Assembly: GCF_001598255.1 (NCBI RefSeq)
Contig: NZ_BCYP01000007.1
Span: 62,001 to 126,000 of the forward strand
DNA from: Mitsuaria chitosanitabida ATCC BAA-476 = NBRC 102408
Lineage (GTDB): Bacteria > Pseudomonadota > Gammaproteobacteria > Burkholderiales > Burkholderiaceae_C
DNA: 64,000 bases
Direction: 5' to 3'
Position 1 is the stretch's first letter. Each line of letters opens with the position of its first letter. The translations under genes and the position numbers were made by a program. Shown piece after piece: positions 53,822-57,770 of the stretch. Below the pieces are notes generated by a model that was not told the DNA's origin, ran no database searches, and saw nothing but the letters and a program-made list of their open reading frames with translations.

Positions 53822-54637
53822 TCAGCGTTGCGCTTGCTTGCGTTGGCGGCGGATGCCCATCACGCCCAGCAGCGCGATGGAGGCCAGTGCCAGCGAGGCT
53901 GGTTCGGGGACCTTGATCGTCGTCGTGGCGGTGCCTGCCACGGAGAACAGCTTCACGAAGTCGTAGCCGGCGAAGCTGGTGCCCAGGCCTTGCGTCAGAC
54001 CGGTGGTCGTGCCGGCCGCGCCGGTCGGCGCGCCGCCCAGCTGCGAGTTGTAGGCGGTGATGATCCACCAGCTGGAGCTGATGTTCTGCGAGTTGATGGT
54101 CTTGGCGGTGCCCGTGACCAGGTCCGCGTAGCTGCCCACCAGGCTCCAGCCGGAACCGGTCAGCGTCGAGGCGGTCTTGCCGGTGATGGTGTTGGCCACG
54201 TTCACGCCGGTCGTCGAGCCGGTGTAGGCCAGCACGGTGATGTCGCTGTCGTACTGCGACCAGCCCACGGTGACCTGCGTCAGCTTCACCAGGTCATCGA
54301 ACTTCAGCAGGATCAGGTCTTGATAGCCGTAGTTGTCGATCGCGTGGTTGGGCGACTGCGAATCGCCGCTCGGCGCGGTGACGCCGAAGCCATTGCCCGA
54401 GTAGTAGGCCAGCGTGCTCTGCGCGAAGGCGCCGGTGCTGGAATACGCGCCGCCGCTGGTGTTGATCGCGGCCGAGTAGGCCGAGTACGACACGTTGGGC
54501 GCCGTGTCGCCGGTCTCGCTGCAATTGCTCACGCAGGTGCCGGCGGTCCAGGTCGAGAGCGCGTGCGCGCTCAGCGGCAGCACGCTGGCCAGCGCGACGA
54601 CGGCGATGCCGATCAGACGGGTGTGAAGTTGACGCAT
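53822..54637 (-). CDS. PEP-CTERM exosortase-sorted surface protein (XDP1-like)
   Basis: Encodes 271 aa. The signal peptide MRQLHTRLIGIAVVALASVL is cleaved near AHA (residue 26). The extracytoplasmic domain is Ser/Thr/Gly-rich with 'AIDNYGYQDLILLKFDDLVK' and QVTVGWSQYDSDITVLAYTG in the middle, resembling the exosortase-dependent XDP1-type surface proteins. The C-terminus carries the sorting signal: VPEPASLALASIALLGVMGI then RRQRKQAQR, i.e. the PEP motif, a membrane helix and a basic tail. Exosortase A would cleave at the PEP motif and release or attach the protein in the EPS context. It has its own terminator and a sigma-54 promoter at 54694-54709. Confidence 0.92.
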   Translation of the reverse strand: MRQLHTRLIGIAVVALASVLPLSAHALSTWTAGTCVSNCSETGDTAPNVSYSAYSAAINTSGGAYSSTGAFAQSTLAYYSGNGFGVTAPSGDSQSPNHAIDNYGYQDLILLKFDDLVKLTQVTVGWSQYDSDITVLAYTGSTTGVNVANTITGKTASTLTGSGWSLVGSYADLVTGTAKTINSQNISSSWWIITAYNSQLGGAPTGAAGTTTGLTQGLGTSFAGYDFVKLFSVAGTATTTIKVPEPASLALASIALLGVMGIRRQRKQAQR

Positions 54638-54693
54638 GGTGTTCCCTCGACGGTCCTGACCCGGGTGGGGCAGTTCTAAGTTGCCGACTTCAA

Positions 54694-54709
54694 AGCAAGG
54701 CCTGGGCCA
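54694..54709 (-). promoter_or_regulatory. Sigma-54 promoter of the PEP-CTERM gene
   Basis: On the minus strand TGGCCCAGGCCTTGCT fits the -24/-12 consensus TGGCACG-N4-TTGCW, with the GG and GC dinucleotides at the exact spacing. Predicted start of transcription is about 54683, a 46-nt leader ahead of ATG 54637, which has GAGGGAA as ribosome site. Sigma-54 control of PEP-CTERM genes is known in XrtA systems. Confidence 0.75.
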
Positions 54710-54735
54710 GGCAACTCAAGTCTTTCAAGATCAAT

Positions 54736-54755
54736 GACTTGCGATGATGCAAGTC
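54736..54755. promoter_or_regulatory. Candidate enhancer-binding site upstream of the sigma-54 promoter
   Basis: GACTTGC-GATGAT-GCAAGTC is a perfect inverted repeat (7-nt arms, 6-nt spacer), 26 nt upstream of the -24 element. A further half-site (CAAGTC, 54717-54722) sits between them. Position suggests binding of a bacterial enhancer-binding protein such as the XrtA-linked regulator PrsR; the regulator gene is not in the window. Confidence 0.5.
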
Positions 54756-54803
54756 GGTTTTCGTGACACGAATGTAAGTTTTTCTGACAAGCCGCTGCAC
54801 CCT

Positions 54804-57608
54804 TCACCTGAGGGTCTGCCCGAGGGCCGCGGCCTCCTTGAGGCTGTCGAACGACTTGCTGCGCAGCGCCGCGTCCAGTTCTTCGCGGGCCTCGGCCTTG
54901 CGGCCCGCCTTGGCCAGCGCGGCCGCGAGGTGATAGCGGATGTCGGGGCTGCCCGGCTCGCGCAGACGCGCGTCGCGCAGCAGTTGCAGCGCGCGGTCCG
55001 CATTGCCGGCCAGGTGTTGCGCCCAGCCCGCGGTGTCGATCACCGCCGCATTGCGCGGATCCAGCGCCAGCGCCTTCTCCGCGGTCTGCGCCGCGGCCGC
55101 GGCATCGCCCTGGCGGATCAGGGCATTGGCCAGGTTGTTGAGCGCCTCGACGTCGTCGGCCTTGAGCTTGAGCGCCGTCTCGTAGCTGCGCCGAGCGGCC
55201 GGATAGGCACCCGCCCGGGCCTGGGCGTCGCCCAGCGCCTTCCAGACCGCGAGGTCCTGGGGCCGGGTCTTGAGCCAGCGGTCGGCCAGGTCTTGCGCGC
55301 CACGGCCCGTCGGGTCCTGGCGGCCCAGCGCGCGCATCAGCGCCAGCAGGCTGCCGGTGGTGGGTTGCAGGTCATGCGCCTTGCGCAGTGCCTCGACGGC
55401 CTGCGCCGGCTGGTTGCGGGCCTGGGCGACGTCGGCCAGCAGCAGGTAGCCGGCGGCCTGCGTGGGCTGGAGCTGGACCACCATCCGGGCCTGCTTCTCC
55501 GCCTGCGCCGAGTTGCCCTGCTGCAGGGCGACGGTCGAGGCCAGCGACAGCGCGCCGACATGCTGGGGCGCCGCTTGCAGGGCCTTGTCCAGGCTGTAGG
55601 CCGCGCCGGCGGTGTCCCGGGCATCGAGCTGCAAAGCCGCGATCTGCGTCAGCGGATCCGGACCGAAGCCCGAGCGCCGCGTGGCGTTGGCCAGCGTGGC
55701 GCGGGCGCCCGCCAGGTCGCGGTTGGCCAGCTGCGCGCGGGCATAGGTGGTCATGGTCTGCGGGTCGTCCGGCGCCTTGGCGAGCAGCTTCTTCGCCGCT
55801 TCCAGCGCCGGCCCCGGCTGGTCCCGCTTGAGCAGCCAGGCCACGAGCGCCAGGTCGGCGCGGGTGTTGCGGGGGCCGCTCATGTCGGCCGCCTTGGCCA
55901 GCCAGCGCTGCACCTCGGCCGGCTTGCCGCGCGCCTCGTTCAGCAGCGCCATCTCGTAGAGGGCGTCGACGTTGTGCTCGTCGGCCTTGATCAGCGCGTC
56001 CAGCCGCGCCTGCGCGGCGTCGAACTGCCGCTGGGCGATCTCGATGCGGGCCAGGCCCAGCTTGGCGTCCACCAGCGAGGGGTCGAGCTGCGCCGCCTGC
56101 TGATAGGCCTCCCGCGCGCCGTTCAGGTCCTTGGCGCCGCGTCGCGCCAGGCCCAGCATCAGCCAGGCGCTGGGATTCTTCGCGTTCTGCTTGACCAGGC
56201 GTTCGGCGACCGACACGGCCTTGGCCGTCTGGCCGCCGCGCAGGTAGAGCGTGGCCAGCGCCATGCCGGCGTAGTTCTGGCGCGGGTCGCGCTGGAACGC
56301 CTTCTCGAGCTCCGCGACCGCGCCACCGGACTGGCCCCCGCGCATCAGCGAGATGCCCAGCGCGGTGTGGAACTCGGGCGCGTCGCGGGTGCGCAGCGCC
56401 TCCTGCATCAGCGAGGCCGCGCGGGCGTGCCGCCCCTGCGCCATCTGCAGCGAGGCCATCATGACCAGCGCCTGGCCGTCGCCGGGGAAGGCCTTCAGGT
56501 AGGCCTCCAGCACCTCGCCGGCGCGCTCCAGGTTGGGCTCGGCCACGTAGACCTGCGCCAGCAGCTTGGACATCGGGCTGTTGGGCGTCTGGCGCTGGGC
56601 GTACTCGAGGTAGGGCTTGGCCTTCTCCATCTGGCCCAGGCCGTAATGGGCCAGGCCGTTCAGCATCAGCGCCTGCGGCCGGAAGCGGATGAACTCGATG
56701 GGCACCGGGTCCAGCTGCTCGGTGACCGCCTTGAGCCCGGCCCGCGCGGTGGCGGCGTCGCCGCGGCGCTCGGCCAGCACGGCGTTCAGGTAGAGCGCGC
56801 GCGGCTCGGTCGGCGCCAGCTTGAGCAGAGCTTGCACCTGGGCCAGCGCGTCGGCGTCGCGGTTCATGTCCAGCAGCAGGCCGGCGCGGGCGAGTTGCGC
56901 GTCGATGTGGCGCGGGTCCGCGGCGATCGCGCGCTCGTAGCCCTTGAGCGCCTCGTCGAGCCGGCCCTGCACGTGCGGCACGGTGGCGCGCTGGTAGAGC
57001 GCCTCGGCGTTGGCCGGCTGGAACTTGAGCGCCTGGTCGGCGGCCAGGGCGGCCTTGTCGAACTGGCGCGCGCGCAGGCGCAGCGGCACTTCGGCCAGCC
57101 AGGTGTCGGCGTTGTCCGGCGGGATCGCGCGCGCGGCGTCGATCTGGGTCTGCGCGCGGGCGGGATCGCCCATGTCGGCGTAGGCGGCGGCCCGCACCAG
57201 CAGCACGGCCTTGCGCACGTCGTCGGGCAGGCCCTCGGGCACCAGCGCCGGCAGCTTGAAGACCTCGGCCTGCTTGCCCTGCGCGACCAGCGCCTGCGCC
57301 AGCGGCAGGGCCACCTCGGCCCGGTTGATGCCCTGGGAGAGCGCCTCGTTGAACTCGATCTCGGCCGCGGCGGCCTCGCTGCGCGACAGCAGCGCCTTGC
57401 CCAGCAGCACGTGCACGGTCAGCATCCGCGCGTCCTGCTGGAGCGCGTTCTTGAGCTGGAGGATGGCGCCGTCGACGTCCTTGCGCTCGAAGCGCTTGAG
57501 CGCGTCCTCGTAGTAGCGCGAGGCCTGGGCGCTGTCGGCCTGCGCGAACGTGGCGCCCAGCGCCAGCACCGCGGCGGTCGGCACCGCGAGCCATCGGCGA
57601 ATCGTCAT
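54804..57608 (-). CDS. prsT: XrtA/PEP-CTERM system TPR-repeat protein PrsT
   Basis: Encodes 934 aa from ATG 57608, chosen because it gives a clean signal peptide (MTIRRWLAVPTAAVLALGAT, cleavage after AQA-DSA). The whole mature protein is helical TPR repeat, e.g. 'ASRYYEDALKRFERKDVDGA' at the start, 'ALAVLAERRGDAATARAGLK'-type units mid-protein and 'ALNNLANALIRQGDAAAAAQ' near the C-terminus. The length of about 930 and the N-terminal pattern fit the PrsT family known next to exosortase-A genes. It is probably a periplasmic or lipid-linked scaffold for EPS and PEP-CTERM protein export. It is transcribed toward the PEP-CTERM gene, which lies 166 nt downstream behind its own promoter. Confidence 0.9.
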   Translation of the reverse strand: MTIRRWLAVPTAAVLALGATFAQADSAQASRYYEDALKRFERKDVDGAILQLKNALQQDARMLTVHVLLGKALLSRSEAAAAEIEFNEALSQGINRAEVALPLAQALVAQGKQAEVFKLPALVPEGLPDDVRKAVLLVRAAAYADMGDPARAQTQIDAARAIPPDNADTWLAEVPLRLRARQFDKAALAADQALKFQPANAEALYQRATVPHVQGRLDEALKGYERAIAADPRHIDAQLARAGLLLDMNRDADALAQVQALLKLAPTEPRALYLNAVLAERRGDAATARAGLKAVTEQLDPVPIEFIRFRPQALMLNGLAHYGLGQMEKAKPYLEYAQRQTPNSPMSKLLAQVYVAEPNLERAGEVLEAYLKAFPGDGQALVMMASLQMAQGRHARAASLMQEALRTRDAPEFHTALGISLMRGGQSGGAVAELEKAFQRDPRQNYAGMALATLYLRGGQTAKAVSVAERLVKQNAKNPSAWLMLGLARRGAKDLNGAREAYQQAAQLDPSLVDAKLGLARIEIAQRQFDAAQARLDALIKADEHNVDALYEMALLNEARGKPAEVQRWLAKAADMSGPRNTRADLALVAWLLKRDQPGPALEAAKKLLAKAPDDPQTMTTYARAQLANRDLAGARATLANATRRSGFGPDPLTQIAALQLDARDTAGAAYSLDKALQAAPQHVGALSLASTVALQQGNSAQAEKQARMVVQLQPTQAAGYLLLADVAQARNQPAQAVEALRKAHDLQPTTGSLLALMRALGRQDPTGRGAQDLADRWLKTRPQDLAVWKALGDAQARAGAYPAARRSYETALKLKADDVEALNNLANALIRQGDAAAAAQTAEKALALDPRNAAVIDTAGWAQHLAGNADRALQLLRDARLREPGSPDIRYHLAAALAKAGRKAEAREELDAALRSKSFDSLKEAAALGQTLR

Positions 57609-57770
57609 GTGTCCCCCCATCCCCAGCCGTCCTCGTGTCATGTGTCGTCGCGCAAATGCGAGCAGGGCACGAGGCCCTGCGATGCGCGCCCGCGATCGTC
57701 GCGCGAGCCGGCGTTCCGCGGTGCCCCTCGAACAGGGGCCCGGGCACGCCTGGACGGGGGTTTTCGCGAC

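Follow-up and report, generated by a model that had tools for sequence, protein, structure and literature searches.

Haft et al. 2006 described, in the cis-regulatory section of their paper, a 17-nt motif ending in TTTACA that is followed by a spacer and then by a sigma-54 motif, motif 2. The motif pair was found before 99 of 167 proteobacterial PEP-CTERM genes, the spacer having a mean of 62.8 nt, a range of 32-92 and a standard deviation of 10.6, and PrsR was predicted to bind the 17-mer (PMC1569441). In Aquincola tertiaricarbonis RN12, the expression of pepA, a gene situated beside prsT, is RpoN1-dependent and has a mapped -24/-12 start (PMC9850573). The PEP-CTERM genes of Zoogloea are reported to be controlled by RpoN and PrsK-PrsR (PMC9012009). 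Several activated-sludge bacteria require PEP-CTERM proteins to form flocs (PMC9850573, PMC9012009).

We analyzed a window of 64,000 nt (the whole stretch of Mitsuaria chitosanitabida DNA presented above), in which a sequence-only reading had proposed a sigma-54 promoter and an upstream palindrome before a PEP-CTERM gene. The genes concerned are:

53822..54637, minus strand: XDP1-type PEP-CTERM gene, 271 aa, the controlled gene (NCBIfam NF041927, 153.5 bits)
54804..57641, minus strand: prsT, coding for a TPR-repeat protein, the upstream neighbour of the XDP1 gene (TIGR02917, 512.4 bits; cut-off 312.2)

The product of the controlled gene ends in a typical PEP-CTERM tail, VPEPASLALASIALLGVMGIRRQRKQAQR, and in the NCBIfam search it exceeded the cut-off (125 bits) of NF041927, the model of exosortase-dependent surface protein 1 (XDP1). 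With the PepA model NF033554 it scored 39 bits, below the cut-off of 80, and hence falls outside that family. A prsT gene lies upstream of the orthologous gene in all nine named relatives (those labelled Roseateles, Mitsuaria or Rubrivivax), with 70-84% identity, and from these relatives the window would probably belong to the Roseateles group. The candidate promoter region is non-coding, and is located in the intergenic stretch of 166 nt between prsT and the XDP1 gene. A hairpin of the CCCTC...GAGGG type spans the prsT stop codon (54799-54815), and is kept in 14 of 15 same-genus promoters, the aligned stretch of the remaining one (locus L093) ending short of the hairpin. This hairpin may be a terminator-like or a coding-linked element.

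The proposed promoter element is:

54709-54694, minus strand: -24/-12 sigma-54 promoter element TGGCCCAGGCCTTGCT, with GG-N10-GC spacing

It sits 72 nt 5′ of the XDP1 ATG (54637), and from the -24/-12 geometry a transcription start is predicted near position 54683. The spacing proposed earlier was right in that GG-N10-GC is exact, but the gap between TGGC and TTGC is 7 bases, so the N8 given for it was wrong. All 15 same-genus promoters retain TGGC-N7-TTGC. A genome search for TGGC-N7-TTGCW alone gave 105 matches, and the reversed control gave 61. The promoter element by itself is not rare; its conservation and the conserved box behind it lift it above chance. The proposal of a sigma-54-type promoter before a PEP-CTERM gene is also supported by the regulators encoded in the genome, namely PrsK, PrsR and two RpoN paralogues. 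Only one protein exceeded the PrsR cut-off of 502.6 bits (about 697-698 bits; next best, 383). PrsK (777 bits), PrsR (698) and PrsT (592), all above cut-off, are encoded in tandem on contig C12, where the gene order is an epsB2-type glycosyltransferase gene, prsK, prsR and prsT. The genome thus has two prsT genes, one beside prsK-prsR on C12 (L172:10337-13228) and one in the window adjoining the XDP1 gene (54804-57641). Both rpoN paralogues (C42:27260-28699 and C13:12085-13452) are above cut-off.

Upstream of the promoter element we observed a sequence of the motif 1 type:

54789-54773, minus strand: probable PrsR box TGTCAGAAAAACTTACA, 63 nt from TGGC

TGTCAGAAAAACTTACA fits the 17-nt motif 1 with one base off at the 3′ end (CTTACA versus TTTACA), a match judged by length, 3′ end, spacing and associated genes rather than by the published logo. 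The protein search within the genus gave matches in 16 of 16 genomes, of which 15, the window's own included, are full orthologues and one (G127) is a weak partial match. TGTC-N8-TTACA is kept in the promoters of all 15, the window's among them. The distance from the box to TGGC is 63-64 nt in 10 of these promoters and 73-74 nt in the other 5, which corresponds to one helical turn, the additional turn lying between the box and the conserved spacer block described below. Within the genome, TGTC-N8-TTACA occurs at five places, three of them before PEP-CTERM genes; the other two do not match the composite with the sigma-54 element. When TTACA or TGACA was allowed, the composite of box and promoter was found six times in the genome and never in the reversed control, and five of the six precede PEP-CTERM genes. 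At this stringency the composite accounts for 5 of the 23 PEP-CTERM genes, and looser forms are present at two more: a near box match, TGTCGGATTTGTTGACG, at 62 nt in locus L045, and a weak one at 41 nt in locus L034. The sixth composite (L173:2246-2339, on contig C23) precedes the gene of a 768-residue protein with a subtilisin-like part (L173:2346-4652). The match of this protein to a PEP-CTERM family is below cut-off, and it is a possible non-standard member of the regulon.

The strict composite was then counted in other genomes. Of 80 genomes of the family, 12 contain it, at 24 places in total and with no match in the control; of 150 genomes of the order, 35 contain it, at 85 places, against a single match in the control. 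Both counts take in the window's own place. A class-wide pattern with N8 before TTTACA, which is one base too long, gave 6 of 369 genomes with no control match, and is not taken as evidence. A family-wide protein search gave matches, mostly distant, in 42 of 250 genomes, and no result rests on it. From 53 loci we obtained 50 promoters of other genomes, since L123 and L165 were dropped (short, anchor not found) and the window's promoter was set aside. Behind 33 of these 50, a crude ORF picker found an ORF whose last 40 residues include PEP. In the other 17, three ORFs run off the locus and 14 are without PEP; four of the 14 (L145, L153, L155 and L163) show PEP-CTERM-like tails by eye.

With a search that allowed 46-76 nt between box and promoter, 108 spacings were collected, which are not independent, because related genomes are among their sources and at least one promoter is duplicated (L123 and L133 are alike). 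Nineteen of the spacings are at 50-53 nt, 75 at 60-65 nt, 10 at 72-74 nt and 4 elsewhere, so that 104 of the 108 fall in three clusters with means of ∼51.2, ∼62.9 and ∼73.2 nt. We describe these as clusters about one helical turn apart, because the best-fitting period over the 108 spacings is 11.4 and not 10.5. Clusters of this kind would be expected of an activator that has to approach the polymerase on one face of the helix.

The spacer between the box and the promoter carries a putative site for IHF:

54729-54741, plus strand: IHF-like site GATCAATGACTTG, matching the consensus at 8 of 9 bases, at a distance of 19 nt from TGGC and in reverse orientation relative to the gene

By score alone the window site is not significant, since 8 or more of 9 was reached in 8.5% of the window shuffles, and the 14 orthologues score mostly 6-7 of 9 (P 0.17-0.94). 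The consensus scores of single spacers being mostly not significant, the case for the site is made by its position and by pooling. Seven promoters of the window's own genome were scanned. Three of them have a perfect WATCAANNNNTTR (AATCAATCACTTG, AATCAATGGGTTG and AATCAATGGCTTG), all in the same orientation and at a distance of exactly 6 nt upstream of TGGC. In the opposite orientation, 8 of 9 bases match in the window's promoter, at 19 nt, and in one further promoter, at 18 nt; L034 has 9 of 9 (reverse, 8 nt) and L055 has 7 of 9 (reverse, 20 nt). The two positions, first seen in this genome (6 and 18-19 nt), were then counted in the 50 promoters from other genomes, 7 nt joining the counted positions after the 50-promoter profile was seen: a reverse IHF-like site is present at 18-19 nt in 22 promoters, and a forward one at 6-7 nt in 10. 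The stored loci among the 85 order-wide places provided this count, and the remaining places enter the spacing count alone. A site at either position was found in 30 of 50 promoters, compared with a mean of 2.0 and a maximum of 8 in 300 shuffles; at a score of at least 8 of 9, the figures are 20 of 50 and a shuffle maximum of 2. In the other 20 promoters, neither position has a good match. Among the PEP-confirmed promoters, 23 of 33 have the site, and by spacer class it is present in 3 of 8 (50-55 nt), 26 of 39 (60-67 nt) and 1 of 3 (72-74 nt). The position profile has a third rise, forward at 21-22 nt (11 matches). As the core CAA-N4-TTG is close to a palindrome, we interpret this rise as an echo of the reverse site.

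When both sets were turned to one strand (22 reverse and 8 forward sites), an A/T-rich tract was observed ∼8-15 nt to the 5′ side, and such a tract is usual for IHF sites. The first consensus base lies 19-20 nt from TGGC in both orientations, and the two arrangements hence mirror each other around a single point. Since the IHF protein is pseudo-symmetric, with its centre adjoining the first consensus base, it would bend the DNA at one spot in either orientation.

Two blocks of the spacer are conserved in the 15 same-genus promoters, the IHF-like core at -32 to -22 and AAGG at -16 to -13 from TGGC, the latter being:

54722..54725, minus strand: second conserved spacer block, identity per column 0.87-1.00 in the 15 same-genus promoters

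This block reads AAGG in most of the same-genus orthologues and AAAG in the window, and is outside the IHF consensus. The conserved spacer could instead be the site of another sequence-specific protein, or of a PEP-CTERM co-regulator. Within the genus, the core block CAAGTGCTTGT and the AAGG that follows it are indeed kept more strictly than IHF needs, and the second block reappears as TCCTT in the order-wide consensus of the reverse class. Three sister promoters of the same genome, however, have the perfect IHF consensus, and both the mirror-image positions and the 5′ A/T-rich tract suit a pseudo-symmetric bender such as IHF. We consider a protein other than IHF unlikely, with some room left for it.

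The palindrome, which had been put forward as the binding motif of PrsR, lies in the same spacer:

54755-54736, read on the minus strand: palindrome GACTTGC-N6-GCAAGTC, GACTTGCATCATCGCAAGTC, a perfect 7-6-7 repeat, probably fortuitous

Reading of the sequence confirmed that it is perfect, that 26 nt separate it from the promoter element downstream, and that an additional half-site, GACTTG, is present at 54722-54717. A perfect dyad with a further half-site upstream of a sigma-54 element is what speaks for PrsR binding there, whether as its sole site or as a second one nearer to the promoter. Its distribution argues against it. The exact palindrome has one copy in the 5.8-Mb genome, and with up to 2 mismatches it was found at 30 places against 46 in the reversed control, hence without enrichment. 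Just one of the other 29 near matches is less than 6 kb from any of the 23 PEP-CTERM genes, at 4.7 kb. We scanned the stretches preceding the PEP-CTERM tail for all 23 PEP-CTERM genes of the genome, and in the 22 other than the window's the best match had 3 mismatches, while the reversed control reached 1 in one stretch. No recurrence before other PEP-CTERM genes was thus found, the outcome that the sequence-only reading itself had named as refuting the motif, and the palindrome is rejected as a regulon motif. It is also rejected as a conserved element, since none of the 14 orthologous promoters of the genus has it, and its outer arm is not conserved among the 15; one orthologue (L093) bears a different 7-6-7 inverted repeat. 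We regard the binding of PrsR to the palindrome as most improbable; judged from the sequence, PrsR is likely to bind TGTCAGAAAAACTTACA instead. The remark that the regulator's site is closer to the promoter than usual falls with it, because the midpoint of the likely box is at about -98 relative to the predicted start, and activators of this kind ordinarily bind at such distances.

Other roles for the palindrome fare little better. As the operator of a local repressor, or of some other regulator peculiar to the strain, it would be suitably placed, between enhancer and promoter, and a perfect 7-bp inverted repeat with a loop of exactly 6 arose in just 1.25% of 2000 dinucleotide shuffles of the intergenic stretch; with no second copy in the genome and none in the relatives, we consider an operator very unlikely. 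An RNA hairpin of a terminator behind prsT, which ends upstream on the same strand, is barely credible and was rejected, since no T run follows the palindrome and it is not conserved, whereas the different hairpin around the prsT stop codon is. With loops of 0-12 allowed, a perfect 7-bp inverted repeat of some kind arose in 12.25% of 2000 shuffles of the 166-nt stretch, and an unrelated 7-bp inverted repeat is present in the spacer of 2 of 50 comparable promoters. The inner arm has 6 of 7 bases in common with the IHF-like site and largely coincides with the end of that site. As an inverted repeat, the palindrome is probably fortuitous.

We propose that the promoter at this locus very probably depends on sigma-54 and PrsR, as a member of the class that Haft et al. 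described in 2006, and that its spacer carries a putative IHF bend. RpoN-RNA polymerase would sit at TGGCCCAGGCCTTGCT, phosphorylated PrsR would occupy TGTCAGAAAAACTTACA, about six helical turns upstream, and a DNA bender, most likely IHF, would bind GATCAATGACTTG between the PrsR box and the promoter. The bend would fold PrsR onto the polymerase, PrsR would open the promoter, and the XDP1 surface protein would be made. The elements, their conservation, spacing and recurrence were computed, and from them we infer the identity of the bound proteins and the activation step. For PrsR-class PEP-CTERM promoters in general, we lean towards a three-part, phase-locked architecture, in which the box moves in steps of about a helical turn and the IHF site is fixed in two mirror orientations. 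If this is true, the production of exosortase substrates would have IHF as a third, hidden input. The recurrence of the spacer site suggests a role for a global DNA-bending protein in the timing of surface-protein production. The two-orientation layout, if confirmed, would be a natural test of IHF placement and of enhancer phasing in sigma-54 activation. The correction made here directs experiments to the known 17-base box and away from a chance palindrome.

The locus shares with the class of Haft et al. 2006, as its cis-regulatory elements are described there, a 17-nt box with a TTACA end, a spacer of ∼63 nt, a -24/-12 element, a PEP-CTERM gene behind it, and PrsK, PrsR and PrsT in the genome; it differs in that the box ends in CTTACA here and in TTTACA there (PMC1569441). 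As in the account of RN12 pepA, the PEP-CTERM gene adjoins prsT and has a -24/-12 element, and the authors note an upstream enhancer sequence; however, pepA is upstream of prsT in RN12, whereas the gene analyzed here is downstream of it, and its product is XDP1 and not PepA by the NCBIfam cut-offs (PMC9850573). An IHF-like consensus between enhancer and promoter is also found in IHF-assisted sigma-54 promoters as described, but the putative site here appears in two mirror-image orientations across the class (PMC7962754). The cis-regulatory section of Haft et al. 2006 makes no mention of an IHF-like site or of a helical clustering of spacings, and neither "IHF" nor "integration host factor" is a term used in that paper (PMC1569441). 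In the literature searched, which left most subscription papers outside it, no paper joining PEP-CTERM promoters with IHF was found. The spacer standard deviation of 10.6 given in the cis-regulatory section would fit helical clustering (PMC1569441). The promoter class is thus already known, and the positions of the IHF-like site and the spacing clusters are possibly two new details of its architecture.
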